A DNA stretch of 42,787 nt, taken from a virus. Shown here piece by piece: positions 24,001 to 41,144 of this stretch. The stretch is from the IMG/VR virus record IMGVR_UViG_3300023087_000036, positions 1-42,787 of that record; one strand, written 5' to 3'. Position 1 is the first letter of the stretch. Every line of letters starts with the position of its first letter. The notes below the pieces were generated by a model. That model was not told the origin of the DNA. It was given only the letters and a program-made list of their open reading frames with translations, and did no database searches. A program made the position numbers and the translations under genes.

Positions 24001-24721
24001 TAGCAATGCTGATAACGATAGTGCAAGTGGTAGATACAGCACCAGTGGAACCAAAATTGAAGCAGGTAGAGGCACAGGTAGTGTTGCAATGACAACCAAT
24101 GATGGGTATGGTAATGCTAACCTTTGTTTCAACCACGACAGTGGTGTTCCTGATATAAATGGTTCAAGTGCTAGGATTGAGTCAAGTGTTGATAGCAGCA
24201 CTCAAACTATGACTTTTGAAGTTGGTAACAGCACCTCAAATGGTGTGGCTGTAAGTTTAAACACAAAAATGACTATTACCACAGGCAGTGTTGCTGTTAC
24301 TGGAAATTTAACAGCAACAGGCGAAGTAACTGCTTACTCATCAGATGAACGTCTTAAAGAAAACTTTGCACCAATAGAAAACGCTTTAGACAAAGTCAAA
24401 TCTTTAAATGGATTATATTTTGATTGGAAGCCAGTTATAGATGAGCTAGGATTTGAACCAGATAACAAGACTAGAGATGCAGGTGTTATAGCACAAGAAG
24501 TGCAAAAAGTATTACCGCAGGCTGTAGCATACGCTCCGTTTGATACACGTTATGAAGTAAATGACGATACAGGAGAAATGGAACGTCATAGCATAAGCGG
24601 TGAAAATTATTTAACTGTTAAGTATGAAAAAATGGTTCCGTTGTTAATTGAAGCAATTAAAGAACAACAAAATGAAATAGATGAACTCAAGGAGATGGTT
24701 AAAAAACTACTCGATAAATAA
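15026..24721 (+). CDS. Giant tail-fibre protein with beta-helix, helical repeats and C-terminal Peptidase_S74 chaperone
   Basis: About 3231 residues from ATG 15026 (AGGAGG 9 nt upstream; an in-frame TTG at 15020 is less likely). The N terminus KIRHKRSAVAGKQPLVSQLD then GELAINTADGKVF is the attachment segment common in marine phage fibres. Residues ~160-440 are a beta-helix like that of the 8245 protein. Three CxRD repeats start near 510, 668 and 833. Then come a YNALPQNGGN module, GSGYT/GGTGYAVGD repeats, and GGTG and TLDGIDSTGF / FLRSDTNDSFSG fibre repeats. The last ~125 residues start SDERLKENFAPIENAL and contain AGVIAQEVQKVLP. This is a Peptidase_S74 intramolecular chaperone, which drives trimer folding and releases itself at the Ser-Asp bond (S3106-D3107 here). 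Likely the main receptor-binding fibre; the receptor is unknown. Confidence 0.85.
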   Translation: MATKIRHKRSAVAGKQPLVSQLDSGELAINTADGKVFLLRDDSTVQDITRRIFDGDTEITIDDQGDSAAAEINIRVNEQDTAQFTAAGMNLFNDLDIENAKTVTFKELTASGDDGVGLKAPDVLDSGYTMTLPPSRGSVGQILATDGNGQLFFQDSDIFGGNVVYVSQEQGDDANDGQSAPVKTVKRACQIASGLVYNADGTINFKRVNIKVAVGDYTEQNPVIVPDNTVIKGDGLRGCIIRPANANLDMLRVRNACYFGEFTFRDGIDSNNVPTITADYAVAFDDPFDTVITDRADYTNLPDTRPTITTSPYIQNCSIISFLGMNGAKIDGSKVESPNVPLFGIEAENPVIGAIPEQGKSMVANAFTILSFGGTAWRLTNDAYAQIVSCFEIFLLNGVYCQSGGYCSITNSATNFGLYALRSSGFSPKAFQFDRSFVTATGSSEGKQTVSIVGINRDAPVEEFVLRFRESDNKTAHDLLLLNKDLIADDTVTYINNQIAAATPSIWAGFTYNEAKCRRDVQLLLDAIRYDLLFDSNHRSVSAALRYFSGSFSNFADQKDQHIAAFGQAKTFTANYITDATATSRANALWDEIIDIITNGDANTVPGDSVAAAYSRPTPTGGSDNASDSGFANAVTQLINNKDFIAAEVNAWINTQIAGDIEPFAIGFVYNEAKCLRDSKLIVDALLYDLTYGGNLQTKIAADAYFIDGTAQYGTGQQEETVAAYGRLKEVVSQVIVETAVSVSAGNAETQDTSADAGSAGAATYAENRIQEIRDFIGSVGATPVTVIEPDISWTSASLQTAFYELDEEGRINISQNVTQYINEQIQANIWYGFTYDESKCNRDTQLIVEAAAKDTWDTGNRYSRSAGLAYYTQNLQDSSRISISGQELQTIAAIDYAKTEAITYISSLSAAVQNFVGSRFDIVTTIINDPDDLPDPTEVSSEGDVTNNFKTTPTETTFNAATEVNATTNIFTITGHGFTNGQKVIYDPNGNAVIQGLDDEQQYYIKLLSEDEFTLAFDDSLDFNVNIIAASTGTHKFFSDVIEFFVEEILSSHTTYQTLELESGSETFEFVPGRAITGTTGSNNNSAIVYSWEPRIRRLIVSIEEVAVGQSLLRIQFDETSTIDSDHAASPNTTIGVNEAATKLGLGTATFSVTATDGSSSLTNLPNLPETQCWFHRPSVVNSSAHTWEYAGSGTDYNALPQNGGNTRSEYEQFEELPGRVYSSGTNELGDFKVGDFITAFNRTGNITFRNKVQVDELDALRLSLSDVAIEEISTSVNLGDDEIGGPSDGRLSTQLAVRSFISNRLGGFVDKTVSTAAVPGAIVQLNVNGQLNPDLIPATRQFTNTNTNGYQSRLEQVDDIPAIDLKAGDIATENYEQVELTLSANTFNASDGDTITQPGVTGAIGYAKGNYALSGNVIVVTIGGAWDDTDDSTGDPWETSSGNIFVNGVDSGVSINSKGPSTEIVDNWFLRSSNSSQFLVLDPTQNYTFTVDDTCSLTFAERNSDVATVTTSAAHNLQVGNTVQILNTTDETYNENGLVLSVPSSTTFTYTNVDSADPTKASAAATGTVRTIVTSADGNAQGAVTEFRSGIAVNVDNANIVGGSGYTPVLGNLVYESVPLQAKTGSGTGAKANITVTAGQVTDVDVSRGGTGYAVGDLLEVNASDVGGTGSGFEIEVTSIEKRAYVNILGGELFVASASSLDFVEDNTAVATSKDINQDDVITHNFLAGDTSGGGAVNYTTYRITITNHGFGNGDPVFYDTLGNVPIGGLLNEQVYYVKVIDANTIELYEGFALLNQVEFTSTPANNNHNITRQTINITDNSVIVENHGLTTGDAIRIESLSDGSTSNELFSTGGAGGPVDSGSRFFVGSVTTNSFTLHALRSDALSSINDLVTNAQDITTTGTGSAEVIVNNVQVESVINTSSRLIANWNTLAVTNIDAENIISGTISPSRLGSSGVPNSDSFLRGDSAYATVVQSLKVATTTDNPITLTGSSLSGEFYGDPVNIGIANADYDPLGTFSTLGTSRFLQTQFDVNTDGSGEVFIKDGVVDAGTLDSLDSAYFLNPANLTSLVPVTRGGTGIGTYSIGAILYAQSASTLNELQIGRQNTFLRSNGTEPEWGTALDLAEGLDVGSASLTSSSTGAGRLYNTNVTSLEIGGDATNISIGSASGSRNLFTFIASYEATISRDVVVNLETINQNAADVAQNGDKEIVMADTTGILAGMIVTGSASIPANTTVSGVTDDAIYLSVATTGSILSGTTLAFTYTPYTLGINPGDRINIGSSGVTNLDGTWPVSGATDTATSFTIRTDDLVTADPLDVPAGTATINGNLILRNESIVIGQAETSATPNDGIIKGVDGLGTNVEGGDLTIQGGLGTGSATGGDVVISTGDIGSSGDTKNTSQVRIRVNAGGVTEVTGYTNFSSSGAIKLPAGNTAARTSPPAAGDARFNTETVGFEGYDGTAWAPLGGVRDGDQDTYIIAETSAGADNDDLDFYTANVQRLQIDQDGDFRFGDSINKVIMDWATGNTQIAGDLTVTGDLQIDGTTTTINSTTLQVDDKNIELGTVASPTDATANGGGITLKGATDHTITWSNANDSWDFSEHVNAAANKEFRIANTSVLNATTLGANIINSSLQTSAMTTVGVLDSGSISSGFGNIDIGTSVFTGSGSGLTTLNASQLTSGTVSGSRLGGNQTMSGIKTFSDTSSATSTTTGAIRVSGGMGVAGALYAGSLNTANGSGIDNLNASNLDSGTVPNGRITGIYSNLTGTGALNQGSITSGFGNINIGTSTFTGNGSGLTNVDAETLDGIDSTGFVAVGGDVMTGQLQFNNTSTASSNSIRFGPGPAGSDDAHIEWMGGSNAGKLRISTSDDTGTEAIEFGDYDNTDRGGTFTQWLNMNRTTFTWQGNTIWHAGNDGPGSGLNADLFDNLGSGSFLRSDTNDSFSGTLSGSGAINISGNITGNVFTGDGSGLTGISADDANTLDGLDSTAFLRSNADNDSASGRYSTSGTKIEAGRGTGSVAMTTNDGYGNANLCFNHDSGVPDINGSSARIESSVDSSTQTMTFEVGNSTSNGVAVSLNTKMTITTGSVAVTGNLTATGEVTAYSSDERLKENFAPIENALDKVKSLNGLYFDWKPVIDELGFEPDNKTRDAGVIAQEVQKVLPQAVAYAPFDTRYEVNDDTGEMERHSISGENYLTVKYEKMVPLLIEAIKEQQNEIDELKEMVKKLLDK
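16553..17900 (+). repeat. Three further CxRD helical repeats inside the second giant fibre
   Basis: Units begin near nt 16553 (FTYNEAKCRRD), 17027 (FVYNEAKCLRD) and 17522 (FTYDESKCNRD). They have the same order of motifs as the ten units in the neighbouring giant gene, showing that the two genes share a mobile or duplicated module. Confidence 0.8.
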
Positions 24722-24724
24722 GAC

Positions 24725-24750
24725 GATAGCCGGATTTGCCGGCTATCTTT
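24725..24750 (+). terminator. Intrinsic terminator after the giant fibre gene
   Basis: GATAGCCGG (24725-24733), ATTTG loop, CCGGCTATC (24739-24747), then TTTCTT. Nine perfect base pairs; it ends the fibre transcription unit. Confidence 0.85.
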
Positions 24751-24751
24751 C

Positions 24752-24787
24752 TTGACATATTTTAAATAGTGTGTTAGCATATTAAAT
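24752..24787 (+). promoter_or_regulatory. Sigma70-like promoter plus late octamer before the accessory cassette
   Basis: TTGACA (24752-24757), 17-nt spacer, TAGCAT (24775-24780), directly after the fibre terminator. An ATTAAATA late-type octamer overlaps at 24780-24787. The cassette could therefore be read both early, by host-type holoenzyme, and late. The -10 is imperfect. Confidence 0.45.
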
Positions 24788-25953: not shown

Positions 25954-28583
25954 GAGCTATAGACAAATTTGAACGTTACGGCAGTCATATTTTTAATGGA
26001 CAAGACTATTTAAAAAATCATATTTTAGATAAATTTCCTGTGGTGTATACAGAGGATACAAATAATTATAAACAAATTTGGGAAAGTGATCAATATAGCA
26101 ATTACGAATATGTTTGGTTAGTAGATTCAAATATTAAAACATTTGATACATTTCCTTGGTATTTCAAACCTAAAGAAACTACCGAAATGAATATACACAA
26201 ATTTCCTTATGTATACAAAAATAGCAACAAGGTTATTAGTGTAGATAAAGTAAAGCTAATTCCTACACAACAAGGCAAATACAAAGACAAACTGCACAAT
26301 TACATTTGCGGACAGTATGATCCCTACTTTGGCAAAGAAAAGTTTGATATATTTTTGATCAGCGACGATGTTGATCAAAAACAATGGGCAATAGACAATA
26401 TAGAAAATGTTCAAATAGTTGATACATTTTATGATGCTCAACAACGTTCTTTTACAGATATGTTCTGGGTAATATGGAATGATACTATACCTAGAAATAC
26501 ATTTAAATTTTCTTATGTGCCAGATGATTGGAGTTTAGACTATGTGCATACATTTGGAAATGGAGACTTAGATCAGCTAGACGGTATTATCTTGTGTCCA
26601 AAAAATTACAAAATAACTGAAAAAGAATTAGAGCATAGATTTTATGCAAATAAAAAAGAGATACGCATAATAGCAAGTGATCCTAAACCATATGATGTAT
26701 TCAAGATCAACAATTATGATGATTATCTGCATGCCTGCAAGTATTCACACTCTACAATGTTTTGGGGAATACCGGATTGTATAGATATTGTAAATCAAAA
26801 TATTTTTGAAACGTATATTAGTCATCATGATAAATCATATAGAAATCAAAATCATGTTTACAAAAACGGAACACGTTTTGATGGAATGGTATTATACAGT
26901 AAAAATAGTCCTGTTTCAGAAAAAGAAATAAAATATAAATTTATCGCATCACGAATTGAGCACGATTTACTAGTAAGTAACCCCAAGCCTTTTGATCGAT
27001 TTACTATTAACAGCTACGAAGATTACCTTAATGCAATGAAAGATACATCCACAGATATGTTCTGGAGTATTCCGGATGATGTATCGGTTAACGAAGACTT
27101 TGCATGGGACAAAGAATTTAACAAAGACGAAATAGACAGAAGAACAAATTACGTTTTCTTAAATGGCGAGCATAGAGACGGCGTGGTGCTGTTCAACAAA
27201 TTTGAAGAAGTTACAGAAAAAGAAATTGAGAATAGATTCTATGTTAACAAGAAAGAAGTAGATATTGTTGCAAGTGTGCCAAAAAAGTATGACAGATTTA
27301 CAATAGATAGTTATGAAGATTATACAACTGCATTGTATAGCAGCAAGTCTAACATGTTTTGGGGCGTGCCTAGTGATGTTAATGTGAGAGACGGATTTGA
27401 GTTTGACCTATATTTTGCTCATTATAATTCTTACGATAGAAATATAAATCATATCTTTTTCAATGATATTCATAGAGACGGAGTAGTATTGTTTAGTAAA
27501 AAAACACTAGCAACAGAAAAAGAAGTTGAAAGTAGATTTTATGTCAACAAAAAAGAATGGGATATTGTTGCAAGTGATCCAAAACCGTATCCAGTGTATA
27601 AAATAGACAATTATGATGATTATACAAAGGCATATGAATCATGTGATACAGATTTATTTTTTATACAACCTAGCGATATTATTGTAAATGATAATTTTGA
27701 TTGGAATTTTTATGTAAATCATCACAATCTATACGAACGAAAAATTAATCATGTTTGGAAAAATGGCATATTTTATGATGGAATTGCTCTTACTAGTAAA
27801 TCAATAAATCTAACAGAAAGGGAAATTCAGTATAGATTTTATGCTATAAAAAAAGAGCACGAAAGTATAGCAAGCAGTCCTAAACCTTTTGACATTGTGT
27901 TTATAAGTAATGGCGAACCTAACGCTGATAAAAATTACAAAAAATTATGCGATAGATTTCCTCATGCTAAAAGAATTGACAAAGTAAAAGGTATTCATAA
28001 CGCACACATTGCTGCTGCTAAACTTTGCAATACCGACATGTTTTGGGTTGTTGATGCAGATGCAGAAATAATTGAAGATTTTAATTTTGATTTTCAAATC
28101 AGCCATTATGACTTAGATGGAAAGAACACTGTGTATGTTTGGAGAAGTTTAAATCCTGTTAATGGTTTAATATACGGATATGGTGGGGTAAAGTTGTTAC
28201 CTAGACATCTAACTGAAAATGTTGATGTAAACTCGGCAGATATGACAACTAGTATAAGTCGTAATTTTAAAGCAATAGATGAAATGAGTAACATAACTGC
28301 ATTTAATACTGATCCATTTAACACATGGAAAAGTGCGTTTAGAGAATGCGTAAAGTTGTCCAGTAGAACTATAGATAGACAAAATGAAAAAGATACAAAG
28401 TTTAGACTGGATGCATGGTGTAGTAGGGGCGAAGATAAATCATTTGGCACGTTTGCACTTGAAGGCGCCCGTGCAGGAAAATTATATGGAGAAAAATATA
28501 AAAATTCTCCAGAACAATTATCAAAGATAAATGATTTTGAATATTTACAAGATCTGTTTAAGCGATCATATCCACAAGTTTAA
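25950..28583 (+). CDS. Large protein of tandem degenerate glycosyltransferase-like repeats with one intact DxD unit
   Basis: 877 residues. Residues ~130-645 hold five ~97-117 residue units, each with KPYDVFKI-x-x-YDDY, then TDMFW-x-[IV]P-x-D, an aromatic stretch, N-x-[IV][FW]-x-NG-x-x-x-DG-x-VLFSK, then TEKEIE-x-RFY-x-NKKE and [IV]ASxPK. The last unit (from ~645) instead reads FDIVFISNGEPNADKNYKKL, DTMFW-like TDMFWVVDADAEI (D702-A703-D704) and YGYGGVKLLPR, resembling a real GT-A domain. The repeats align with this DxD segment but have lost the acidic pair, so they look like serial duplications that decayed into binding modules. The C-terminal ~160 residues (DAWCSRGEDKSFGTFAL) are unique. Substrate unknown. 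The 3' end overlaps the convergent Nudix gene by 26 nt. Confidence 0.65.
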   Translation: MRAIDKFERYGSHIFNGQDYLKNHILDKFPVVYTEDTNNYKQIWESDQYSNYEYVWLVDSNIKTFDTFPWYFKPKETTEMNIHKFPYVYKNSNKVISVDKVKLIPTQQGKYKDKLHNYICGQYDPYFGKEKFDIFLISDDVDQKQWAIDNIENVQIVDTFYDAQQRSFTDMFWVIWNDTIPRNTFKFSYVPDDWSLDYVHTFGNGDLDQLDGIILCPKNYKITEKELEHRFYANKKEIRIIASDPKPYDVFKINNYDDYLHACKYSHSTMFWGIPDCIDIVNQNIFETYISHHDKSYRNQNHVYKNGTRFDGMVLYSKNSPVSEKEIKYKFIASRIEHDLLVSNPKPFDRFTINSYEDYLNAMKDTSTDMFWSIPDDVSVNEDFAWDKEFNKDEIDRRTNYVFLNGEHRDGVVLFNKFEEVTEKEIENRFYVNKKEVDIVASVPKKYDRFTIDSYEDYTTALYSSKSNMFWGVPSDVNVRDGFEFDLYFAHYNSYDRNINHIFFNDIHRDGVVLFSKKTLATEKEVESRFYVNKKEWDIVASDPKPYPVYKIDNYDDYTKAYESCDTDLFFIQPSDIIVNDNFDWNFYVNHHNLYERKINHVWKNGIFYDGIALTSKSINLTEREIQYRFYAIKKEHESIASSPKPFDIVFISNGEPNADKNYKKLCDRFPHAKRIDKVKGIHNAHIAAAKLCNTDMFWVVDADAEIIEDFNFDFQISHYDLDGKNTVYVWRSLNPVNGLIYGYGGVKLLPRHLTENVDVNSADMTTSISRNFKAIDEMSNITAFNTDPFNTWKSAFRECVKLSSRTIDRQNEKDTKFRLDAWCSRGEDKSFGTFALEGARAGKLYGEKYKNSPEQLSKINDFEYLQDLFKRSYPQV
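26336..27885 (+). repeat. Five tandem GT-like protein repeats
   Basis: Units start near nt 26336, 26689, 26988, 27285 and 27584, about 300 bp apart after the first. Each encodes a conserved MFWxxPxD core, a NG-x-x-x-DG-x-x-L turn and a RFYxNKKE helix. Units three and four are the most alike. Confidence 0.8.
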
Positions 28584-28998
28584 TTACTGTATCTAACTTG
28601 TTTAAATTTGTTTTATTACGTAAGGTATTGTTTAATCCTTGATGCAATGGTTTTGGCCATTTTTTGAATGCAACCCATGCATATCCATCGTGTTCTTTGT
28701 TCAATGCTGGAATAAACTCCTGTTCTACAACACAAAGATATGTATGAAAGAAAAACTGCTGATCGTTAGAAATAAAACTTTCCAGTGGCACCGTCTTTTT
28801 TATTAAAGGAATTTCTCCAATTTCCTCTTCAATTTCTCTTTGCAATCCTTCCCATGGAGTTTCGCCGTCTTCGTTTGTTCCGCCAACAAGTCCCCATAAT
28901 TCTTTATGTTTGCCTTGAGTTCTATGTAATAATAAAAATCTTTTTGTTTTTAAACTATAAAAAAGAGTTCCGCTACATATAATTTTTTTGGTGCTCAT
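28558..28998 (-). CDS. Nudix hydrolase
   Basis: 146 residues on the minus strand. The Nudix box G-x5-E-x7-REIEEEIGE is clear (GTNEDGETPWEGLQ preceding it), with upstream ICSGTLFYS and FLLLHRTQGKHKELWGLVGG as in MutT/NudE-type enzymes that hydrolyse nucleoside diphosphates linked to another moiety, using Mg2+ at the Glu pair. The last position of the box is Glu rather than the usual hydrophobic. The exact substrate (nucleotide sugar, dinucleotide or oxidised dNTP) is not readable. It follows gp15 by 12 nt with no clear ribosome site and is likely the last gene of the minus-strand unit. It converges on, and overlaps, the 877-residue GT-like gene. Confidence 0.88.
   Translation of the reverse strand: MSTKKIICSGTLFYSLKTKRFLLLHRTQGKHKELWGLVGGTNEDGETPWEGLQREIEEEIGEIPLIKKTVPLESFISNDQQFFFHTYLCVVEQEFIPALNKEHDGYAWVAFKKWPKPLHQGLNNTLRNKTNLNKLDTVIKLVDMIA
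28574..28601. terminator. Weak bidirectional hairpin at the convergent gene ends
   Basis: ACAAGTT (28574-28580) pairs with AACTTGT (28595-28601) across 14 nt, flanked by short T/A runs. It covers the 3' ends of both convergent genes and could slow or stop both transcripts. Low stability. Confidence 0.3.
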
Positions 28999-29010: not shown

Positions 29011-30804
29011 TTACAACACTAAATCCCAAGTTCCATTTGAATAGTATCCGTCAATACTACGTTGCCAGAAATAACCATTAAAGTAATATTGCTTATTAGT
29101 TGTGAGATTAGTTGAATAAACAATGTCATCGGTTTCACTTGCATCAAATACAATATTCCAATTGTTTCCGTCCCATTCAACTATATCGTAATGATCGGCA
29201 ATAAAATCTTCGCCTCCGGTTCCTTTCCATGCATCAGCGCCATCATGATTCATGTGTAGCACATACCTAATTTTTGCATTATCAGGCGCTGTATTATCAA
29301 GTTTAATTGTATACTTGTCATCTCTATTAATAGCTGTAGATGTAACCTTTGTTCCATTTACAAACACGTCATGTCCATATACTATATCAAAATCTGTATC
29401 CGTGTTAATTATATTATCAGGCAAAGTAAATGTTTGTCTTCTTTCTACTTTGCCACCAATGGGTGCAAGCATTAATAATCTTGTTCCGTTTGGAATATCT
29501 GCAAGTGTTGTGCCAAATGTTTTTATAGGATGGAAAGTTCTTGGATTTATAATGTAATCAAGTGTGCCTTCTAAAGATGCACTTCTTGCTGGACCAGGAA
29601 TAAGGGTGTCTTGAGGAAGTGTGTCAATGTCCCAATCAATTTCTAATGTAAACTTATCTCCGTCTTTTATTACAAAAGTTCCTACTACTGGATTAATTAA
29701 CTCTGCTCTTTTTAATCTTATTTGACTTATACCAGGTTGATATGTTGCAAACTCTTCAGATTCGATAACGTGTTCCCATGTTATATCTCCAATACGCAAC
29801 TGTTTGTTAATTGCAAGGCGTGCAGTTTCGTCTTCTACTATTATATCAAAATTGCGATAAGTTGTTACAACAGGAGATTTTACACTTACCGCTGCATCGC
29901 TAGAAATACCAAAAGTATTTCTAGGTCTAGTGTCATCATCAGGATCTACTATGACATCATCATATGTTTGCGTATTGCCTGACAAATCATTTGTCACTGC
30001 TGTTTGGCCTTGTGCTCCAGTATTTGTTTGTCCAGCATTTATTACACTGCCATCTGGTAATATTGTAATATCCTCTGTATTAGTAACATCAGTTCCTGTA
30101 TCAGGATTAAACCCTCCTAGTTCTACAGTTCCTGTATCTACATTGAATACATTAGTAATAATACTTGTAATAACACCTAGTTTCTTGACTTTGGCTGGCG
30201 GAGAAATATAAATCGGAGCAGTAAAGGCCATAGTGGCTACATCAATATCTGTATCTGTTCCAGTAGGAATACTTCGGCTACTAAAAGTAAGACTATCCAT
30301 ATTTAGGACTGTTAAACTTGTCCAGTCTACATAATTGTCACTGGTTTGCAATTCTAAATCAGGATTGAATACCATTAATATTTGTTCCATGATTTGCAAT
30401 TTTTGTTCTGTATTTGTTGACCATAAATCAACGTTTACACTCAAATTGTATGGAGTTGGGTGTAATCTTTCTACAGTGTAACCATTACCTTGAGCTGTTG
30501 TATAGGCATTTGTGTCGTAATTGTATTCTCTTTCACGCACACTTACTTTGCTTACAAAACTGCTATCACTCAAGCGAGTCCTATCCATTTCTAATCCTGT
30601 AATGTATACTGCCATACGTGGAGCACTAGGCATTTTGTTTTCGCTATTGTCACGCATTATATTAGCAACTTGTCTTGTTAAGTCTCCATACATGACCGGA
30701 ACCTGTGTAAGATTGCCTTCGCTGTCTTGGTAACTTACAAAGCTGAAAGCTCTAATTATTTGACTAATATATCTGCGTATCTGTCCATCGTAAAAAAATT
30801 GCAT
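29011..30804 (-). CDS. 15: Proximal tail sheath stabiliser gp15, C-terminally extended
   Basis: 597 residues on the minus strand, about twice T4 gp15 (about 272). The N-terminal third matches gp15: MQFFYDGQIRRYISQIIRAF, VPVMYGDLTRQVANIM, PTPYNLSVNVDLWSTNTEQK, then QIMEQILMVFNPDL and a conserved YISPP. gp15 caps the top of the tail tube and sheath and joins it to the neck. From ~residue 230 an Asp/Thr-rich linker leads to beta-rich domains and ends with three short aromatic motifs (VEWDGNNWNIVFD, YYFNGYFWQRS, YYSNGTWDLVL) like those in gp14 and gp18 here. The start overlaps the gp14 stop by 1 nt (TAATG). The orientation is opposite to the other tail genes. Confidence 0.85.
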   Translation of the reverse strand: MQFFYDGQIRRYISQIIRAFSFVSYQDSEGNLTQVPVMYGDLTRQVANIMRDNSENKMPSAPRMAVYITGLEMDRTRLSDSSFVSKVSVREREYNYDTNAYTTAQGNGYTVERLHPTPYNLSVNVDLWSTNTEQKLQIMEQILMVFNPDLELQTSDNYVDWTSLTVLNMDSLTFSSRSIPTGTDTDIDVATMAFTAPIYISPPAKVKKLGVITSIITNVFNVDTGTVELGGFNPDTGTDVTNTEDITILPDGSVINAGQTNTGAQGQTAVTNDLSGNTQTYDDVIVDPDDDTRPRNTFGISSDAAVSVKSPVVTTYRNFDIIVEDETARLAINKQLRIGDITWEHVIESEEFATYQPGISQIRLKRAELINPVVGTFVIKDGDKFTLEIDWDIDTLPQDTLIPGPARSASLEGTLDYIINPRTFHPIKTFGTTLADIPNGTRLLMLAPIGGKVERRQTFTLPDNIINTDTDFDIVYGHDVFVNGTKVTSTAINRDDKYTIKLDNTAPDNAKIRYVLHMNHDGADAWKGTGGEDFIADHYDIVEWDGNNWNIVFDASETDDIVYSTNLTTNKQYYFNGYFWQRSIDGYYSNGTWDLVL

Positions 30805-32222
30805 TAGAAATCTGACCTCGGTCTAAGTGCTTTTGATATAGCCTGTCTCTCGGCTTCACGTCTAGCATACAAGTAAATATCGTATCTTCCTGTTTTTTGT
30901 ATTGTTTCTTGAACACTATCTATAATAGGTAATTGAATTCGTAATTTTCCATTTCCGTCATCTAAAAATAGATCTTCATGTTCAGCAACAGCATAATCTT
31001 GTAATAATCTTGTTTCTTGATTGGTTATAGTCACATAAAGTGCTGTGGTTGGAAAATCTAACCTTGTATCAATAATTATATCACCCTCTGTTGCATTGAT
31101 AACATCAGAACCAAGTTTATTGAAATACATGTAATTAGTATTATTAATAAATGTTCCTTTTTGTGTATCTCTAGTTGAATCTGGATTCATTGTAGTTCTT
31201 ACATTGTCTTCAACTTTTTTCCATGTTGTGCCAGTAAAATAAAACAACCTATTTGGAAAAAAATCTTTTCGTAGAAAGTAGTCGCCTTCTGAACTTAATG
31301 CTGTCGCTGGAAAGTTAAATCCTTCTCCATAAGGAACTCCATTAGGTGGCAATCCGTCGCCAACCAGATATCCTAGATATGCACTATTAGGTGGATTCAT
31401 CATTACCATGTCAGAAGTGATAAGTCCATCAGCAGTAAGTTCTGTCGTATCTGCACTTAACAAATATACTTCACCGTTTTCTCTAACTGTAATAGTAAAA
31501 AATTGTGCAGTGTCATATCCACTAGCTTTAACATCTAATTCCGCCTGCGCAATAACAGCATCGTTGATTTCCATTTCTTTATTGTATGTGCTGAGGACAT
31601 CACGTAGTGTATTGCCATCCGGATTATCTTCGTCTGCAGGTAAATTTAAAATATCTTTATATTCTTGGCTGTCTACTAGTTGTTTTAATTTTAATCTATA
31701 TAAATGTGGATACCAAGTTTGACTGAATCCTTCTGCTGCGCGATTCACATCTTCTACCACATAAAATCGTTTTAATGCCACGTCAAAATCATTCAATGCA
31801 TACTCATCCTTCAAGTGTGGCAATTCAATTACATCACCGCTTATAAATTTTCTGCCTAATGTTTTTACACTGCTGTTGATATGAACAGTTAGAAAAATCA
31901 TATCGTTGCTTAAAAATATACCAAATTGACTTAGATCAAAATCGGCATCTTGCACATTGTAGTGCCCACGCATGGTGTAAACATCTTCATCGTATTTTCT
32001 GTCTCTGTTTTCTAGAAACAGCAAATCTTGTATGTTCTTTACACTAACATTAGAGTATTGTGGTTTATCAGCTGTAGCATCGTCGTCGCTTGCTAATTTT
32101 GGACCTAGATACTTATGCACAACTACATCTGTTCCACCTACAGTGAATTGTTCAAAGATAATATTATCTAAAAAATCGTAGTCGTTACTTTTATCCGGTC
32201 TGTATAAACTTAATCGTGGCAT
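30804..32222 (-). CDS. 14: Neck protein gp14, C-terminally extended
   Basis: 472 residues on the minus strand versus about 256 in T4. The core fits gp14: EQFTVGGTDVVVHKYLGP (gp14 VAESIQMRGVECYYVPR region), FGIFLSNDMIFLTVH, GDVIELPHLKDEYALNDFDV then FYVVEDVNRAAEGFSQTWYP (gp14 GDLIYFPMDNSLFEINWV). gp14 is part of the neck that joins filled heads to tails. Residues ~225-472 are an added region with a GDYFLRKDFFPNRLFYFTGT then TWKKV module (~311-340). It starts 4 nt after a minus-strand GATAAATA octamer with no Shine-Dalgarno, which predicts a leaderless message. Confidence 0.8.
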   Translation of the reverse strand: MPRLSLYRPDKSNDYDFLDNIIFEQFTVGGTDVVVHKYLGPKLASDDDATADKPQYSNVSVKNIQDLLFLENRDRKYDEDVYTMRGHYNVQDADFDLSQFGIFLSNDMIFLTVHINSSVKTLGRKFISGDVIELPHLKDEYALNDFDVALKRFYVVEDVNRAAEGFSQTWYPHLYRLKLKQLVDSQEYKDILNLPADEDNPDGNTLRDVLSTYNKEMEINDAVIAQAELDVKASGYDTAQFFTITVRENGEVYLLSADTTELTADGLITSDMVMMNPPNSAYLGYLVGDGLPPNGVPYGEGFNFPATALSSEGDYFLRKDFFPNRLFYFTGTTWKKVEDNVRTTMNPDSTRDTQKGTFINNTNYMYFNKLGSDVINATEGDIIIDTRLDFPTTALYVTITNQETRLLQDYAVAEHEDLFLDDGNGKLRIQLPIIDSVQETIQKTGRYDIYLYARREAERQAISKALRPRSDF

Positions 32223-32226
32223 ACTA

Positions 32227-32247
32227 TATTTATCGACACGATAAATA
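32227..32247. promoter_or_regulatory. Divergent, perfectly palindromic late-promoter pair
   Basis: TATTTATCG (32227-32235) and CGATAAATA (32239-32247) are exact inverted copies separated by ACA. They give a GATAAATA octamer on each strand, facing gp14 (minus, ATG 4 nt away) and gp13 (plus, ATG 16 nt away behind a TTGGAG ribosome site). The two octamers are so close that two polymerases could hardly bind at once. Confidence 0.65.
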
Positions 32248-32263
32248 CTATTGGAGATAAATC

Positions 32264-33025
32264 ATGGCCGATACAACTACAGAAAAGCAAGAAATATTCA
32301 ATTATGTCAACACCTTTTTAGGTGGCGGCATGGTAGACGTTGAACTTGATCCAATACATTATGATACAGCTTTAGGCAAATCATTAAGCAAATATAGACA
32401 GCGTAGCGAAAACAGTGTTGAAGAAAGTTATATAACTTTACCGTTTGAACAAGATAAAAATGAATACATACTGCCTCAAGAAATTATTGAAGTAAGAAAA
32501 ATTTATAGGCGCAGTATTGGCAGTAGATTAGGCGGTAGTGCAGATGGCGGCAGTTTGTTTGAACCGTTTAACCTAGCATATACCAACACCTATTTGTTAG
32601 CAGGTAGTGGTATAGGCGGCTTGGCTACATATGATTTCTTTGCCCAGCAACAAGAATTAATAGGACGCATGTTTGGTAGCTTTATTGAATTTACATGGAA
32701 CACAAGCAACAAAAAATTAACTATATTACAGCGTCCAAGAGCCGACGAAGAAGTGTTGTTATGGTGTTACAATTATAGACCAGATTTTGAGTTATACAAA
32801 GATTACAAGGCATTTCAATGGATAAAAGATTACACACTTGCTAATTGTAAATACATGCTCGGAGAAGCACGTAGTAAGTTTTCAACTATTGCCGGACCTG
32901 GTGGCGGCACTACACTAAATGGCGATGCCTTAAAAGCAGAAGCACAGCAAGAAATGGAAAAACTAGAACAAGACTTAGCCATGGCTGTTGCAGGCGGAAC
33001 AGGATACGGCTTCCTAATTGGTTGA
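32264..33025 (+). CDS. 13: Neck protein gp13
   Basis: 253 residues, slightly shorter than T4 gp13 (about 309). EIFNYVNTFLGGGMVDVELD then PIHYDTALGKSLSKYRQRSE matches the gp13 N terminus (DEIFDYVKDSLG, VNVELTENQYNTAL), and the C terminus LANCKYMLGEARSKF, GDALKAEAQQEMEKLEQDL matches its helical end. gp13 forms the neck ring with gp14 and seals the packaged head. It reads opposite to gp14 and gp15, from the shared promoter. Its 3' end contains a sigma70-like promoter for the next gene. Confidence 0.8.
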   Translation: MADTTTEKQEIFNYVNTFLGGGMVDVELDPIHYDTALGKSLSKYRQRSENSVEESYITLPFEQDKNEYILPQEIIEVRKIYRRSIGSRLGGSADGGSLFEPFNLAYTNTYLLAGSGIGGLATYDFFAQQQELIGRMFGSFIEFTWNTSNKKLTILQRPRADEEVLLWCYNYRPDFELYKDYKAFQWIKDYTLANCKYMLGEARSKFSTIAGPGGGTTLNGDALKAEAQQEMEKLEQDLAMAVAGGTGYGFLIG

Positions 33026-33642: not shown

Positions 33643-36600
33643 ATGGTAGGATTAGTATCACCAGGCGTTCAGGTAAATGTAATTGACGAGAGCTTTTACA
33701 CCCCGGCCGAACCTGGCACAACACCACTTATTTTTGTAGCAACAGAACAAAATAAATTAAACGGAGCAGGAACAGGTGTAGCTGAAGGAACCCTTAAAGC
33801 TAATGCTGATAAAGTTTACTTGATCAGTTCACAAAGAGAACTTGTTGAAACTTTTGGAGATCCGAAGTTTATAACTGATGCTAATAACAACCCAATTCAC
33901 GGGGGTGAACAAAACGAATACGGATTGCAGGCAGCATACTCATATTTAGGTGTAAGCAACCTTGCTTATGTAGTTAGAGCAGATGTTGACCTTGCAGCTC
34001 TTAATGCAAGTGCAATTCCAACAGCAGCCGATCCAACTGATGGCACATATTGGTTAGATACCGAGTCATCAACTTACGGATTTTTTGAGTGGAACGGCGC
34101 AAGTATATTAACAGCAGGCGGTCAAACTTTTACAAACAAAGTTCCGCTTGTAATCACAGACGAAACACAGTTAGTAGGAAATACTGCAACCAGTAGACCA
34201 AAAGGGTCAGTTGGTGCTATTGGCGATTATGCCTTGGTTGCAACCACAAATGTTGTTAAAGCATATTACAAATCTCCAGGTAATGCCACAGGCTTAACAG
34301 CTGGGCAATGGGTAGAATTAGGAAGCGCAAATTGGAAAGCAAGCTGGCCTGTTGTAACAGCAACAAATCCAAACGTAACTATTACAGCTGGTGATGCATT
34401 TGATATTACAACAAATGGCGGTTCAATTACTGTAACTGCTACAGGCGACCTTACACAATTTGTAACTGACATTAATACAGCTACAGCATCGGCATCGAAT
34501 GGTGTAAGTGTAGCACTAATTGATGGTAAACTAGAATTTTATGTCGATGGCAGTGACGGAGAAATGACACTAGCTGATGGTAACAACACGCCTCTAGATA
34601 CACTCGGTATCACAGCTGGACAGTATGTTACTCCAAGATTAGAAATTGCACCTCACACAGAAGTGCCAGAATACAAAACTAATGACACTACACCAAGACC
34701 AACAGGTTCTTTCTGGATTAAAACAACCGAACCAAATCTAGGTGCTCGTTGGAGAGTAAGACGTTGGAACGAAGATACTGAACTTTGGGATAGTAAAGAT
34801 TCACCAATTTACGATTCAAACGTAGATGCTCTTTATGAATTAGATCGTTCTGGTGGTGGATCAAATCTAACAATAGGCGATTTATATATCCAGTCAAATG
34901 TTGCAGCTGATACAAGTCCACTAGGCACATTTAAAATCTTTGTTAGAAATGCTACTGGAGCAACCACAGTAACAACAGGCAAAATTGATACAACTACATT
35001 TACAACAGGAGCTAAGTCATTTGATATTAGCGAAAGTGATGCAGGTTCAACAACAATGAGCGCTGCTCAAACTGCAACATTTACAGCGACAGGAAGTTCA
35101 GATGATGCCGATTTAATGGCAGAAGCAATCAACGCACTAAACTTTGAAAACATTGTTGCAAGCGTTGATAGTCAAAGCAGAGTTACTATTACACACAGAG
35201 ATGGCGGTGAAATACACTTTGTAGATACCAGCAATGCGCTAACAGATGCAGGCTTCACACCATATGATACTGTTGCTCTTACAGGCACACTAAACCTATA
35301 TTGGCAAGATGGCGCAAGCGGCAGCAACCCAGAGCAATACAAAGCATCTCTTTGGAAGCCATTAACATATGTAGCCAGCGAAGATGCTCCAACAGCATTA
35401 GCAGCAGACGGTGCATTATGGTATAGCAGCGTTATTGACGAAGTTGATATTATGGTCCACAACGGTGAAAAGTGGGTAGGACTATTATACGATGGTGCAT
35501 CAGGGCAAAGCAATATTGCAAGTCCTTACTACAATGTAGATCCAGCACAAGCGCCAGATCCAGCAGGACCATTTGTAAGAGTTACAGCACCTGAAGACGG
35601 TGATCGTTCTGATGGTGGAAATTTAGTTGATGGCGATATTTGGATTAGCACAGCAGATATTGAAAACTATCCATTAGTATATCGTTATAATGCCACATTA
35701 GCTGAATGGATTCAATTAGATGCAACAGATCAAACAACTGAAAATGGCGTATTGTTCGGCGATGCACGTTACAACACTAACGGCGCTAACAGCGACGAGC
35801 AGGGTGACATTGCTGACTTGCTAACAACCGATTATGTTGATCCAGATTGTCCAGATCCGGCACTATATCCAAAAGGTATGCTATTATGGAATCTACGTAG
35901 AAGCGGATTTAACGTGAAACGTTTCGTTCGTAACTATATTGATACTGCACAAGATAACCCACAATACGGCGCAGGCGATGGCGAATCAATGATAAACTAT
36001 TATCCACATCGTTGGGTAACCGAGTCTGCCAACCAAGCAAACGGTAAAGGCAGCTTTGGCAGATTATCGCAACGTGCAGTGGTTGTGCAGCAGCTACAAT
36101 CATCGGTCAACAGCAACCAAGATGTTAGAGACGAAGAAAGACGTGTATTTAACTTGATTGCTACGCCTGGTTATCCAGAGCTTATTGGCGAGATGATAAG
36201 TCTAAACTACGACAGAAACTTAACAGCGTTTGTTGTAGGAGATACTCCAGCAAGACTAACTCCAGATGCAACTTCATTAAATGATTGGGCAACAAATGCT
36301 GCACTAGCAGTTGAAGACAACGATCTTGGATTAGTGAGCAGAGATGAATACATGGGTGTTTGGTATCCATGGGGCTTCACTAGTGATAATGCAGGAAACA
36401 ATGTAGTTGTTCCTCCAAGTCATATGGTGCTAAGAGTAATAGCATTGAATGACCAAGTTGCTTATCCATGGTTTGCACCAGCAGGAACAAGACGAGGCGG
36501 TGTGACAAATGCAAGCAGTGTTGGTTATGTCAATTCCGAAGGAGAATTTGTAAGTATATCACTTAACGAAGGTCAGCGTGATACGCTATACACTCAAAAC

Positions 36601-37005
36601 GTCAACCCAATTACATTCCTTGTAGGTGCAGGGCTTGTAGTATTTGGACAGAAGACTCGTGCAAGAAATGCAAGTGCTCTAGATAGAGTAAACGTAGCAA
36701 GACTTATTATTTACATGAGAAGTCAGCTTACTAAACTTGCTAAACCGTATCTGTTTGAACCAAATGACAAAATTACAAGAGACGAAGTAAAACAAGCAGT
36801 AGAAAGTTTACTAGTTGAACTTGTAGGACTTAGAGCACTTTACGACTTCTTAGTTGTATGTGACGAATCAAACAACACTCCGGCAAGAATCGACAGAAAC
36901 GAACTTTACGTTGATATTGCAATTGAACCAGTAAAAGCAATTGAATTTATTTACATTCCGTTGCGTATTAAGAACACTGGTGAAATTTCAGGATTGTCTG
37001 CTTAA
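33643..37005 (+). CDS. 18: Tail sheath protein gp18 with large central insertions
   Basis: 1120 residues versus about 659 in T4. The N terminus LVSPGVQVNVIDESFYTPAE plus LVETFGDPKF matches gp18. The C-terminal ~400 residues, including DRVNVARLIIYMRSQLTKLA, VCDESNNTPARIDRNELYVD and IEFIYIPLRI, are the conserved sheath core that contracts. Residues ~130-690 hold extra beta-rich domains with at least four motifs of the form G-[TSAD]-x-[WY]-[LIY]: DGTYWLDTESSTYGFFEWNG (~133), TGSFWIKTTEPNLGARWRVR (~355), DGALWYSS (~590), GDIWISTADIENYPLVYRYN (~664), each followed by a W-containing strand. In T4 the sheath's extra domains face outwards, so these probably decorate the tail surface. It has a good AGGAG site. 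Confidence 0.93.
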   Translation: MVGLVSPGVQVNVIDESFYTPAEPGTTPLIFVATEQNKLNGAGTGVAEGTLKANADKVYLISSQRELVETFGDPKFITDANNNPIHGGEQNEYGLQAAYSYLGVSNLAYVVRADVDLAALNASAIPTAADPTDGTYWLDTESSTYGFFEWNGASILTAGGQTFTNKVPLVITDETQLVGNTATSRPKGSVGAIGDYALVATTNVVKAYYKSPGNATGLTAGQWVELGSANWKASWPVVTATNPNVTITAGDAFDITTNGGSITVTATGDLTQFVTDINTATASASNGVSVALIDGKLEFYVDGSDGEMTLADGNNTPLDTLGITAGQYVTPRLEIAPHTEVPEYKTNDTTPRPTGSFWIKTTEPNLGARWRVRRWNEDTELWDSKDSPIYDSNVDALYELDRSGGGSNLTIGDLYIQSNVAADTSPLGTFKIFVRNATGATTVTTGKIDTTTFTTGAKSFDISESDAGSTTMSAAQTATFTATGSSDDADLMAEAINALNFENIVASVDSQSRVTITHRDGGEIHFVDTSNALTDAGFTPYDTVALTGTLNLYWQDGASGSNPEQYKASLWKPLTYVASEDAPTALAADGALWYSSVIDEVDIMVHNGEKWVGLLYDGASGQSNIASPYYNVDPAQAPDPAGPFVRVTAPEDGDRSDGGNLVDGDIWISTADIENYPLVYRYNATLAEWIQLDATDQTTENGVLFGDARYNTNGANSDEQGDIADLLTTDYVDPDCPDPALYPKGMLLWNLRRSGFNVKRFVRNYIDTAQDNPQYGAGDGESMINYYPHRWVTESANQANGKGSFGRLSQRAVVVQQLQSSVNSNQDVRDEERRVFNLIATPGYPELIGEMISLNYDRNLTAFVVGDTPARLTPDATSLNDWATNAALAVEDNDLGLVSRDEYMGVWYPWGFTSDNAGNNVVVPPSHMVLRVIALNDQVAYPWFAPAGTRRGGVTNASSVGYVNSEGEFVSISLNEGQRDTLYTQNVNPITFLVGAGLVVFGQKTRARNASALDRVNVARLIIYMRSQLTKLAKPYLFEPNDKITRDEVKQAVESLLVELVGLRALYDFLVVCDESNNTPARIDRNELYVDIAIEPVKAIEFIYIPLRIKNTGEISGLSA

Positions 37006-37048: not shown

Positions 37049-37056
37049 GATAAATA
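37049..37056 (+). promoter_or_regulatory. Late-promoter-like octamer GATAAATA before gp19
   Basis: GATAAATACTTGTG (37049-37062) is identical over 14 nt to the motif at 6160. The gp19 ATG is 24 nt after the octamer, with an AATAGGAG ribosome site between. Confidence 0.65.
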
Positions 37057-37080: not shown

Positions 37081-37704
37081 ATGGCAATCTCAACACTTAC
37101 TAATATTACAGTTCCATTAGCAAACGATACAAGTGCTAACAACCAAGGCTTGTTAATGCCTAAACTACAGTATCGTTTCCGTGTTACACTAGAAAATTTT
37201 GGTGTTTCGGCTGATACACAGGAACTTACAAAACAAGTTGTTGACGTTAGTAGACCAAACGTTAACTTTGAACAAATGACACTTGATGTGTATAACTCAA
37301 AAGTATTTCTTGCAGGTAAACATACTTGGCAGGAAGTTTCACTTAACCTAAGAGACGATGTTAACGGCAACGTTCAAAAAATGGTTGGTGAACAATTACA
37401 GAAACAATTTGATTTCTTTGAACAAGCAAGTGCAGCATCAGGACAAGATTATAAATTCTTAATGCGCATGGAAATACTAGATGGCGGTAATGGAACAAGC
37501 ACACCTAATGTTTTAGATACATGGGAACTATATGGTTGTTACTTAACCAGCGCAAATTATGGAACACTAGATTATTCACAAAGTGCTCCAGTGCAAGTCG
37601 AACTTAGCATTCAGTATGATAACGCTGTTCAAACACCAAACGGAACAGGCGTAGGAACTCCAGTTCCACGTAACCTTAGCTCGCTAGCAACTGGCGCAGG
37701 CTAA
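37081..37704 (+). CDS. 19: Tail tube protein gp19
   Basis: 207 residues (T4 about 163). PKLQYRFRVTLENFGVSADT, LTKQVVDVSRPNVNFEQMTL, HTWQEVSLNLRDDVNG and DTWELYGCYLTSANYGTLDY are the standard gp19 tube signature. Hexameric rings of it stack to form the DNA-conducting tube inside the sheath. The C-terminal ~25 residues (NGTGVGTPVPRNLSSL) are a flexible tail. It has its own late octamer and a terminator immediately after, so it can be made in the large amounts needed. Confidence 0.93.
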   Translation: MAISTLTNITVPLANDTSANNQGLLMPKLQYRFRVTLENFGVSADTQELTKQVVDVSRPNVNFEQMTLDVYNSKVFLAGKHTWQEVSLNLRDDVNGNVQKMVGEQLQKQFDFFEQASAASGQDYKFLMRMEILDGGNGTSTPNVLDTWELYGCYLTSANYGTLDYSQSAPVQVELSIQYDNAVQTPNGTGVGTPVPRNLSSLATGAG

Positions 37705-37777: not shown

Positions 37778-37785
37778 GATAAATA
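37778..37785 (+). promoter_or_regulatory. Late-promoter-like octamer GATAAATA, leaderless arrangement
   Basis: The octamer is followed by TTAAT and then the ATG at 37791; no Shine-Dalgarno is present. The predicted transcript start coincides with the start codon. Confidence 0.6.
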
Positions 37786-37790
37786 TTAAT

Positions 37791-39089
37791 ATGACAAACT
37801 CGGCACAATTTGATAACTTACAAAATATTGGGTCAAACAAAGGGTATGTAGGTGACTATGCTCATGCTGCTGCTTTATACCTACGTGCAGGATATAGACT
37901 TGCTCCTAAAACAAAATTTCTTTATCATGTTAACATTGGTATTAATCCAAGTGCATTAAAGTCTTTGGGTGCGGCAGGTAACTTCCTACAAAACAATAAA
38001 AAAGAATTAAATTTACTAGTAAGCACTGTGGAACTGCCACGATTTACTGTAGACACTGATACAAAAAATCAGTATAACAGAAAGAAAATTATACAAAGAC
38101 GCACACGTTACGATCCAATACGTATGACGTTTCATGACGATAGACAAGGTAACACAACACTTTTTTGGGAAGCATATTTTAGATATTATAACCAAGATCC
38201 AAATTATACGTCACGTTTTGCATTTCCTCCAAACAACATGTATTCTGGAGGACTAAGAAGATATGGTTTAGATAGAACCAACAGATTAAACACCCCCTTC
38301 TTGCAATATATAACAGTGTCTCAATTGTATAGCATTCAAGGATCGCACGAGTTTACAGGATTTACTTTGATTAATCCAATGATTACCAATTGGGAACATG
38401 ACGAAATGGATCAAAGTAACGGAAACACTTTTGCTAGAAACACACTGTCAATTGAATATGAAAGTGTATCTTACGAGAGAGAACAAAGCGGAGAAGATAG
38501 TCCTCCTGGCTTTAGAGATCCTGCTTATTATGATACAGGAAAAAGTAAACTGTCTACTAATATTCCTGGCACACAAGGCCGTTTTACAACAGGCAATCTA
38601 TGGGCAGACTTAACAAACGGCAATAGAGACCTGGGCACTCTTTTAAACGCATTTAGATTTATCAATCAAGATCTGCCTACAAACAACACAGGATTTAATA
38701 TTCCGTCGGGACAAACAAATATTTTAGCAAGTGTTATAGGTGGTGCAAGTAGTTTTGCTTTTCCTAGATCTTCAAATTATAACGAACTTACACAGACATT
38801 GCAAAAAGTTTCAGATTTTTCAAATGTGTTGAGTGCATTAACAAATAGCGAAGTTAGAGACGAAGCAAGACGAAATCCTGCATTTGCAGCAGAGCTAGGA
38901 CAATCTGCAATCAATCTTTTGCCTCCTAGTTCTTTTACAGCATCTTTACAACCTGTAGTAACGTCAATTGGTTTGCTAGGCAGTGTAAACGAGAGAAACG
39001 CCGCATATAACAATTTAAGCTCTAATCAAAGACAGAGTTGTGTAAATACTGCTGTATCTAATGTGTCAACATTACGAGCAAGGTTTTAA
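37791..39089 (+). CDS. Tail-tube-like baseplate/tail protein (gp19-fold; gp48 or gp54 candidate)
   Basis: 432 residues. The middle (RFTVDTDTKNQYNRKKIIQR, DPIRMTFHDDRQGNTTLFWE, FTGFTLINPMITNWEHDEMD, NTLSIEYESVSYERE) follows the tube fold shared by T4 gp19, gp48 and gp54: a strand, a 'polarity' loop, then a sheet ending in [EY]YESVxY. The last ~170 residues (from SKLSTNIPGTQGRFTTG) are a separate helical/disordered region. In T4, gp54 initiates the tube on the baseplate and gp48 caps it, so this is probably one of these; I cannot decide which. It stands right after gp19. It starts 5 nt after a GATAAATA octamer with no ribosome site. Confidence 0.6.
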   Translation: MTNSAQFDNLQNIGSNKGYVGDYAHAAALYLRAGYRLAPKTKFLYHVNIGINPSALKSLGAAGNFLQNNKKELNLLVSTVELPRFTVDTDTKNQYNRKKIIQRRTRYDPIRMTFHDDRQGNTTLFWEAYFRYYNQDPNYTSRFAFPPNNMYSGGLRRYGLDRTNRLNTPFLQYITVSQLYSIQGSHEFTGFTLINPMITNWEHDEMDQSNGNTFARNTLSIEYESVSYEREQSGEDSPPGFRDPAYYDTGKSKLSTNIPGTQGRFTTGNLWADLTNGNRDLGTLLNAFRFINQDLPTNNTGFNIPSGQTNILASVIGGASSFAFPRSSNYNELTQTLQKVSDFSNVLSALTNSEVRDEARRNPAFAAELGQSAINLLPPSSFTASLQPVVTSIGLLGSVNERNAAYNNLSSNQRQSCVNTAVSNVSTLRARF

Positions 39090-39941: not shown

Positions 39942-40427
39942 ATGACAAAGAAACTTGAAGAAATGTTAAATCTGCCGGAAAACAAAGACTTACCAGAGCA
40001 AGAGCCGGAAGTCGAATTACCAGCAGAACATGAATCTACCTTTAGAGACATAGAAGAATTTGATAAGATAGCCAGTGCGCTGCCTACTGTAAAAGGCTTA
40101 GGAGACATGGCAGACAAAGAACTCAACGAAGTTGCAAACAAAGCAATGAGTGCATATGAGGATCTAATGGACTTAGGCATGAATGTTGAAAGTCGATATA
40201 GTGGAAGAGTTTTTGAAGTTGCTGGCACTATGTTGAAAACAAATCTAGATGCAAAAGTTGCTAAACTAGATAAAAAACTCAAAATGGTTGAGCTACAACT
40301 TAAAAAAGAAAAAATGGATAGAGACAGTGGCCCAGGAGATGGAGACATTGTAAACGGTGAAGGCTATGTTGTAACAGATCGCAACAGTTTGTTGGAAAGA
40401 CTCAAGGGCCTTGATAAAGATAAATAG
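39942..40427 (+). CDS. 16: Small terminase subunit gp16
   Basis: 161 residues (T4 about 164). The layout is as in gp16: an acidic disordered N terminus (LPENKDLPEQEPEVELPAEH), a helical core including ESRYSGRVFEVAGTMLKTNL then DAKVAKLDKKLKMVELQLK (T4: [29 protein letters not shown]), and a C-terminal NSLLERLKGLDKDK helix. Small terminases form rings that recognise DNA and stimulate the gp17 motor. The large terminase begins 2.3 kb downstream, after three extra genes, unlike T4 where 16 and 17 are adjacent. Confidence 0.8.
   Translation: MTKKLEEMLNLPENKDLPEQEPEVELPAEHESTFRDIEEFDKIASALPTVKGLGDMADKELNEVANKAMSAYEDLMDLGMNVESRYSGRVFEVAGTMLKTNLDAKVAKLDKKLKMVELQLKKEKMDRDSGPGDGDIVNGEGYVVTDRNSLLERLKGLDKDK
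40419..40426 (+). promoter_or_regulatory. Late-promoter-like octamer GATAAATA inside the 3' end of gp16
   Basis: The octamer is followed by GCAT and then the ATG at 40431; it overlaps the gp16 stop and there is no Shine-Dalgarno. Leaderless arrangement. Confidence 0.5.
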
Positions 40428-40430
40428 CAT

Positions 40431-41144
40431 ATGCGAGTAAAAGAAGTAATCATAGAAGGTTCTGATATTGCTTTACTATATCATTCTACTTCATATACAC
40501 ATGCAGCAGGTATCCTAAAGGACGACGGCTTCAAAGGCGGGACTGTTGATGGTAATGGACGTATATCAAGAGACAGTTATATAAGTTTTAGTAGATCTCC
40601 TAGCAATATGTATAATAGAGGTAATATAAATTTAGGCGTTACTTTTGAAATAAATCAGGAAAAATTAGAAAAGATATTACAATCTGGAGCAGATGCAGAT
40701 ACATCTGGAAGACAATACGGATTAAAGCCTTTTGTATTCCATCCCAAATACGTTGACGAACTTGAGACAAGATGTGACATGAAAGGCTGTGAAAAACTAA
40801 AAAATTTAAAAAAATTTGTAAGAGCTATACATGTCTTGTCGCCCGACAGTGTAAAAATTATTGCTGATGCCGAAGCAGGCTTAAAGGATATTCCTGCGGT
40901 AGAATTAGTAAACATGAAGAAACATGCAGAAAAACGTGCTGCTATGGCAGATGATGTTTTAAAACTGGCTGCACAAAAAGGCTTGCGCACACATGTATAT
41001 TTAAATCGCGCTGATTGGTTGAATAAACGCATTGACAAAAGTTTCACACCACAAAGAGGCAAACCGTCAAAAATATGGCGAATAGTAAAAGCCCTAGTCA
41101 AGCGTAATATTGTTGGGGCAGTTAGGATAGCAAGAGATAAATAG
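40431..41144 (+). CDS. Putative ADP-ribosyltransferase-like protein, candidate head-internal effector
   Basis: 237 residues. LLYHSTSYTHAAGILKDDGF (residues 15-34) followed by SYISFSRSPSNMYNRG (49-64) resembles the start of ART-fold proteins, in which a His in a YH-x-[ST] loop and a [YF]xS strand hold NAD+ (seen in Tpt1/DarT-like and many phage-encoded relatives). The third catalytic motif (Glu) cannot be pinned by eye. The C-terminal half is Lys/Arg-rich and helical. The N terminus MRVKEVIIE-G ends in IxE, the gp21 cleavage pattern, similar to T4 capsid-targeting peptides. T4 packages an ART (Alt) that modifies host RNA polymerase, so an Alt analogue is possible. This is inference; a plain hypothetical protein is the alternative. 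It starts 4 nt after a late octamer. Confidence 0.4.
   Translation: MRVKEVIIEGSDIALLYHSTSYTHAAGILKDDGFKGGTVDGNGRISRDSYISFSRSPSNMYNRGNINLGVTFEINQEKLEKILQSGADADTSGRQYGLKPFVFHPKYVDELETRCDMKGCEKLKNLKKFVRAIHVLSPDSVKIIADAEAGLKDIPAVELVNMKKHAEKRAAMADDVLKLAAQKGLRTHVYLNRADWLNKRIDKSFTPQRGKPSKIWRIVKALVKRNIVGAVRIARDK
41136..41143 (+). promoter_or_regulatory. Late-promoter-like octamer GATAAATA
   Basis: It overlaps the end of the ART-like gene, 22 nt before the ATG at 41166. AGGA at 41153-41156 can serve as a ribosome site. Confidence 0.5.

Follow-up and report, generated by a model that had tools for sequence, protein, structure and literature searches.

Back-to-back T4-type late-promoter octamers between the divergent gp14 and gp13 neck genes of marine T4-like phages and a predicted leaderless gp14 message

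The 41-bp intergenic spacer between the gp14 gene (start 32222, leftward) and the gp13 gene (start 32264, rightward) of a T4-like phage probably carries two complete late promoters of the T4 type, from which a rightward RNA is predicted to begin at 32253 and a leftward, leaderless RNA at the AUG of gp14. The window analysed here, 42,787 nucleotides of IMG/VR virus record IMGVR_UViG_3300023087_000036, is a 42.8-kb structural fragment of a virus that, among cultured phages, is most closely related to jumbo T4-like ones. Positions 32227-32247 read TATTTATCGACACGATAAATA, that is TATTTATCG-ACA-CGATAAATA, with perfect 9-bp arms and a 3-nt centre (21 bp in total), and the octamer GATAAATA is present once per strand within this palindrome, as a leftward late-promoter octamer at 32227-32234 on the minus strand (predicted to span -13 to -6, with 4 nt between it and the gp14 ATG) and a rightward one at 32240-32247 on the plus strand (predicted +1 at 32253 by T4 spacing, PMC2988020), separated by the 5-bp spacer GACAC (32235-32239), the length of which varies among relatives. 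A sequence-only reading of this DNA had already described the perfect inverted repeat, its 3-nt centre and the octamer on each strand, and the sequence agrees. The window has no other perfect 9-bp/3-nt inverted repeat (0.26 are expected in each simulated window), and among 300 first-order Markov windows none had two GATAAATA copies back to back at 0-16 bp from each other; the 21-bp palindrome is confirmed as real and not due to chance. The window holds 10 copies of GATAAATA versus 2.7 expected, nine on the plus strand and one on the minus strand, most of them upstream of structural genes and in the same direction as the gene, and the sole minus-strand copy is the leftward octamer of the palindrome, which heads the only leftward structural cluster. 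The octamer of T4-type late promoters is TATAAATA, or NATAAATA in S-PM2, and lies upstream of late and structural genes (PMC2988020, PMC2984593); the octamers of 32227-32247 match the 8-bp TATA box NATAAATA on both strands and share the place upstream of late genes, the first base here being mostly G. No sigma-70-like match overlapping 32227-32247 was found, and no -35 is evident at either octamer of the spacer, the upstream region of each being the start of the other gene. We read the palindrome as two T4-type late promoters that stand back to back and would fire apart, their activity being inferred from the octamers. An RNA hairpin or attenuator was considered and rejected, with a weak fold (z -1.3), no terminator-like site and a palindrome lying upstream of both predicted starts.

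The gp14-like neck protein gene (30804-32222, minus strand, 472 aa, PHROG 11591) is the first in a leftward unit that continues with a gp15-like tail-sheath stabiliser gene (29011-30804, minus strand, PF16724) and a NUDIX hydrolase gene (28558-28998, minus strand), an order also found in PA5oct and Vibrio phage 2.275.O. Its start codon is the ATG at 32220-32222 on the minus strand, predicted to lie within 1 nt of the transcript 5' end, and M1 of gp14 is invariant in alignments. The rightward gene (32264-33025, plus strand, 253 aa) encodes the gp13-like neck protein; it belongs to PHROG 211, 'head-tail adaptor Ad2', a name also borne by T4 gp13, matches T4 gp13 in the PDB (E=1.6e-4) and is preceded by a GGAG Shine-Dalgarno sequence at 32253-32256 on the plus strand, 7 nt before the ATG. 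The assignment of the 30804-32222 product as gp14-like is supported by structure prediction, since the top four Foldseek matches of the model are T4 neck entries with gp14 (E=4e-6 to 6e-4), and gp14 is the protein of the chains matched, 9lu7_M and 9mkb_0; the model has low confidence (mean pLDDT 52), the sequence-profile link of this protein to T4 gp14 is not significant, and no PDB sequence match to it was found. The earlier statement that two neck genes are served stands in that gp14 and gp13 flank the site, and falls short in that the leftward unit also holds gp15 and NUDIX. The gp14-like protein is enlarged (472 aa versus about 385 aa in most relatives and 256 aa in T4), as are the gp15-like protein (597 aa, 29011-30804) and the sheath (1120 aa, 33643-37005).

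The comparison set consisted of 65 distinct spacers, all taken from relatives in IMG/VR in which gp14 and gp13 likewise diverge; many of these loci are related, so that the counts represent non-independent events. The minus octamer is separated from the gp14 ATG by 5 nt in 48/65 spacers, by 4 nt in 3/65 and by 7-8 nt in 10/65, and gp14 has no Shine-Dalgarno sequence where this distance is 4-5 nt, one being absent in the window too; gp13 nearly always has a GGAG-type leader in the relatives. In T4 the late octamer starts at -13 (PMC2988020); it therefore ends at -6 and leaves 5 nt before +1, so this spacing combined with a 5-nt gap predicts a gp14 transcript that starts at the AUG, without a leader. 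With the 4-nt gap of the window, +1 would fall on the U of AUG under strict T4 spacing, and therefore a one-base shift is needed for a start exactly at the AUG. Judged by these distances, the gp14 mRNA should be leaderless in most relatives; a T4-type late promoter set for a leaderless start is unusual among T4-like phages, and this leaderless-type spacing (4-5 nt, no Shine-Dalgarno) was missed in the sequence-only reading. The predicted leaderlessness of gp14 is not universal, because the octamer-to-gp14 gap is 8 nt in nine distinct relatives, equivalent to a 3-nt leader, and four relatives (L054, L055, L061 and L068) have gp14 with a Shine-Dalgarno leader and the octamer 21-28 nt away. As a separate observation, the codon aligned with gp14 M1 is ATT in L054, L055 and L068, where GGAG lies 7 nt before the ATT and no ATG, GTG or TTG precedes it in frame, and AUU initiation of a structural gene is possible in these three; in L061 and L062 the M1-aligned codon is ATC, with an in-frame ATG two codons upstream.

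The same division was observed beyond gp14. The octamer-to-ATG distances of the relatives are bimodal, with 54 cases at 4-5 nt, 76 cases at 15-24 nt and only 2 cases at 9-14 nt, and a Shine-Dalgarno sequence accompanies 1/54 cases of the short class versus 73/76 of the long class; permuted motifs, utilized as a control, gave no bimodal distances. Over nine marine contigs (1.16 Mb), the pattern ATAAATAN{4,5}ATG was detected 49 times versus 4 in the reversed control, and the N{9,13} spacing 16 times versus 27. The families with 4-5 nt spacing include gp14, an 82-aa gene (PHROG 13986), the second tail-tube gene and a 111-aa gene. Within the window, leaderless spacing is displayed on the plus strand by late octamers at 37778-37785 (second tail-tube gene, 37791-39089, with 5 nt to its ATG) and 40419-40426 (gene 40431-41144, with 4 nt to its ATG), and the octamer TATAAATA at 673-680 on the plus strand is separated by 5 nt from the ATG that starts the 82-aa gene (686-934), a 5-nt spacing that recurs for this gene in many relatives; the late octamer at 37049-37056 on the plus strand belongs to a tail-tube gene (37081-37704) with a Shine-Dalgarno leader, 24 nt from its ATG. 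The led class of the relatives peaks at 16 nt from octamer to ATG, which fits minimal leaders beginning at the Shine-Dalgarno sequence, and in the window the predicted rightward +1 is the first G of GGAG, leaving an 11-nt gp13 leader (32253-32263). At 24713-24760, GATAAATA stands at the end of a 3233-aa ORF, and only a few bases further on come AGCCGG-ATTT-GCCGGCT, which resembles a hairpin, and a T-rich stretch. This may be a tandem of promoter and terminator, or the match may be due to chance.

This spacing was also observed in the cultured phage HTVC008M (Pelagibacter phage, 98 kb), where 11 octamer-like sites lie exactly 5 nt before an ATG and 11/11 of these ATGs are independently annotated starts, those at 6280, 7562 and 19456 among them. 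Two of them form a divergent pair, 18916 leftward and 18943 rightward, that is predicted to be leaderless on both strands; these are gp2 and gp4 (L201 18905-18955), with a 26-bp spacer and abutting octamers, each 5 nt from its ATG. The gp13, gp14 and gp15 genes of HTVC008M are co-directional, unlike those of the window, and its divergent pair serves other genes. No octamer-ATG spacing of 4-5 nt was seen before T4 genes at 81-149 kb, there was no clear excess in S-PM2 (6 vs 3) or P-SSM2 (6 vs 10), and 34 cases were counted versus 34 in the control over Phosso, PA5oct, GAP32, Atu_ph07, T4, SCTP-2 and Vibrio 2.275.O, a lack of enrichment on which the cultured jumbo relatives were rejected as carriers of the spacing. 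PA5oct, one such relative, differs in having a led gp14, with GATAAATA about 20 nt upstream and AGGAG.

It is unlikely that the gp14 message instead begins farther upstream on the minus strand, inside or beyond gp13, and that the 5-nt spacing merely reflects compaction. The spacer is indeed compact, and translational coupling could serve where the upstream gene is co-directional, as at 40431; however, the gene upstream of gp14 is divergent, hence coupling is impossible there, and compaction leaves the exact 5-nt peak, the near-empty zone at 9-14 nt and the partition of Shine-Dalgarno sequences unexplained. Moreover, the Shine-Dalgarno sequence is absent at gp14 whatever the 5' end of its message, and the divergent genes at 18916 and 18943 of HTVC008M show the same spacing on both strands.

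Returning to the two predicted promoters, both octamers are kept in 65/65 distinct spacers, which supports the earlier proposal of a divergent late promoter between gp14 and gp13, the conservation of both arms in related phages being the check that had been suggested with it. The distance between the octamers varies from -1 to 16 bp, with 5, -1, 0 and 6 the commonest values, and each octamer holds a narrow distance to the start signal of its own gene across the relatives. As the octamer spacing is variable, the units are two promoters and the dyad symmetry is incidental; the palindrome, on the sequence comparison, appears as a by-product of two promoters set back to back, and the idea of the palindrome as a functional unit is not supported. 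Exactly one back-to-back pair was detected in 4/9 marine contigs scanned, the window included, and none with the strict pattern in seven cultured phages other than T4; Phosso has a degenerate divergent octamer pair at its gp14/gp13 boundary. In a more distant relative (L094, 2930-3015) the octamers are 2 bp apart, with gp13 at 5 nt and gp14 at 7 nt, and both genes may be nearly leaderless.

At the gp14/gp13 site, host RNA polymerase carrying a gp55-type late sigma would occupy either of the two octamers, and one octamer would be used at a time because footprints so close must overlap; mutual exclusion of the two promoters is therefore plausible on steric grounds. The rightward RNA would start at 32253 on the Shine-Dalgarno sequence with the minimal gp13 leader, and the leftward RNA would start within 1 nt of the gp14 AUG and run on into gp15 and NUDIX. 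In T4, the strand bearing the clamp-loading nick sets the polarity of activation, and switching the nicked strand switches the polarity; clamp orientation could therefore choose the direction on each DNA copy, and by analogy with this T4 biochemistry the loading direction of the sliding clamp may set the direction of transcription at each copy of the site. The octamers, their conservation, their spacing and the presence or absence of Shine-Dalgarno sequences are established by sequence alone, and it is from this level that we infer activity, exact 5' ends, exclusion, clamp polarity and leaderless translation.

The sequence-only reading saw in the palindrome a means of keeping gp13 and gp14 at a fixed ratio by mutual exclusion of the two promoters; such a purpose is improbable. 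In favour of it, exclusion is plausible for identical octamers with footprints that overlap, no relative examined lacks the pair, and the T4 neck PDB entries contain 12 gp13 and 6 gp14 chains (48/4 and 24/4). Against such splitting, the geometry is not fixed, given spacers of -1 to 16 bp; a ratio near 1:1 rather than 2:1 would be expected of identical octamers; at basal output, the bidirectional promoters of E. coli competed little (PMC12825309); and T4 and PA5oct make the same proteins without a pair at gp13/gp14. With the two octamers identical, the clear and consistent asymmetry between the genes is in their translation signals, a GGAG leader for gp13 and none for gp14, and to tie the 2:1 gp13:gp14 chain count to this asymmetry is speculation.

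A single active arm, with the other octamer a by-product of -10 symmetry or AT-rich sequence, is very unlikely. Boxes of the ATAAATA type are rich in A and T, and bacterial -10 elements with symmetry often initiate in both directions (PMC12825309), but the octamers here are complete, separate and conserved, each keeping within a narrow range of distances from the start signal of its own gene, and the minus octamer is the only GATAAATA on the minus strand of the window. A site for a dimeric regulator, or for recombination or packaging, to which the perfect 9-bp arms and 3-nt centre would be suited, is made extremely improbable by the range of arm spacings in relatives (-1 to 16 bp), with the octamer-to-own-gene distance maintained, and by the occurrence of the same octamer singly upstream of other late genes.

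The pair of late promoters has a close precedent, since overlapping divergent late promoter architecture is already known from T4. T4 genes 26/51 (NC_000866 116441-116461) show the same 21-bp geometry, a minus-strand GATAAATA, 5 bp and a plus-strand TATAAATA, and this sole such pair in T4, like that of the window, comprises opposite octamers with a 5-bp spacer, within one polymerase footprint and flanked by late structural genes that diverge. Divergent transcription of this T4 26/51 base-plate cluster from overlapping promoters was reportedly described by Scarlato et al. 1989 (Virology). The T4 pair is unlike the window's in having a second, nested minus octamer, TATTTATAAATA, in serving other genes, and in that a Shine-Dalgarno leader precedes both 26 and 51 (distances to the ATG 12 or 21 nt and 17 nt). 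Bacterial bidirectional promoters, which have a shared symmetric -10, one polymerase at a time and start sites most often 18 bp apart (PMC12825309), resemble the window site in divergent initiation from one short site; the window differs in having two separate octamers, with predicted starts about 32 bp apart, and a single -10 shared by both directions was not found with a 5-bp spacer in the window and up to 16 bp in relatives. The leaderless mRNAs of mycobacteria (PMC4633059) are alike in the predicted 5' AUG without a Shine-Dalgarno sequence, and differ in relying on a host sigma, whereas a phage late-sigma octamer is proposed here. Nothing on leaderless T4-type late transcripts was found in the literature searched.

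T4 late transcription is a textbook system, and leaders are present on the T4 late genes checked. What is unexpected against this precedent, from sequence comparison, is the late octamer at 4-5 nt from the ATG, the divergent overlapping pair being known. A wider proposal, in which a defined subset of late structural messages in a marine T4-like clade and HTVC008M is leaderless through the 5-nt octamer, clamp polarity picks the direction at divergent sites such as gp14/gp13 or the gp2/gp4 site of HTVC008M, and the mode of translation (leaderless, Shine-Dalgarno or, in some relatives, AUU) sets the relative protein yield, is put forward tentatively, as a possibility less likely than not. The prediction of leaderless late mRNA is testable in the cultured pelagiphage HTVC008M, and start predictors that demand a Shine-Dalgarno sequence could misplace such starts in gene calling. 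If the prediction is true, late-gene translation in marine phages and HTVC008M would rely on a different mode of initiation.
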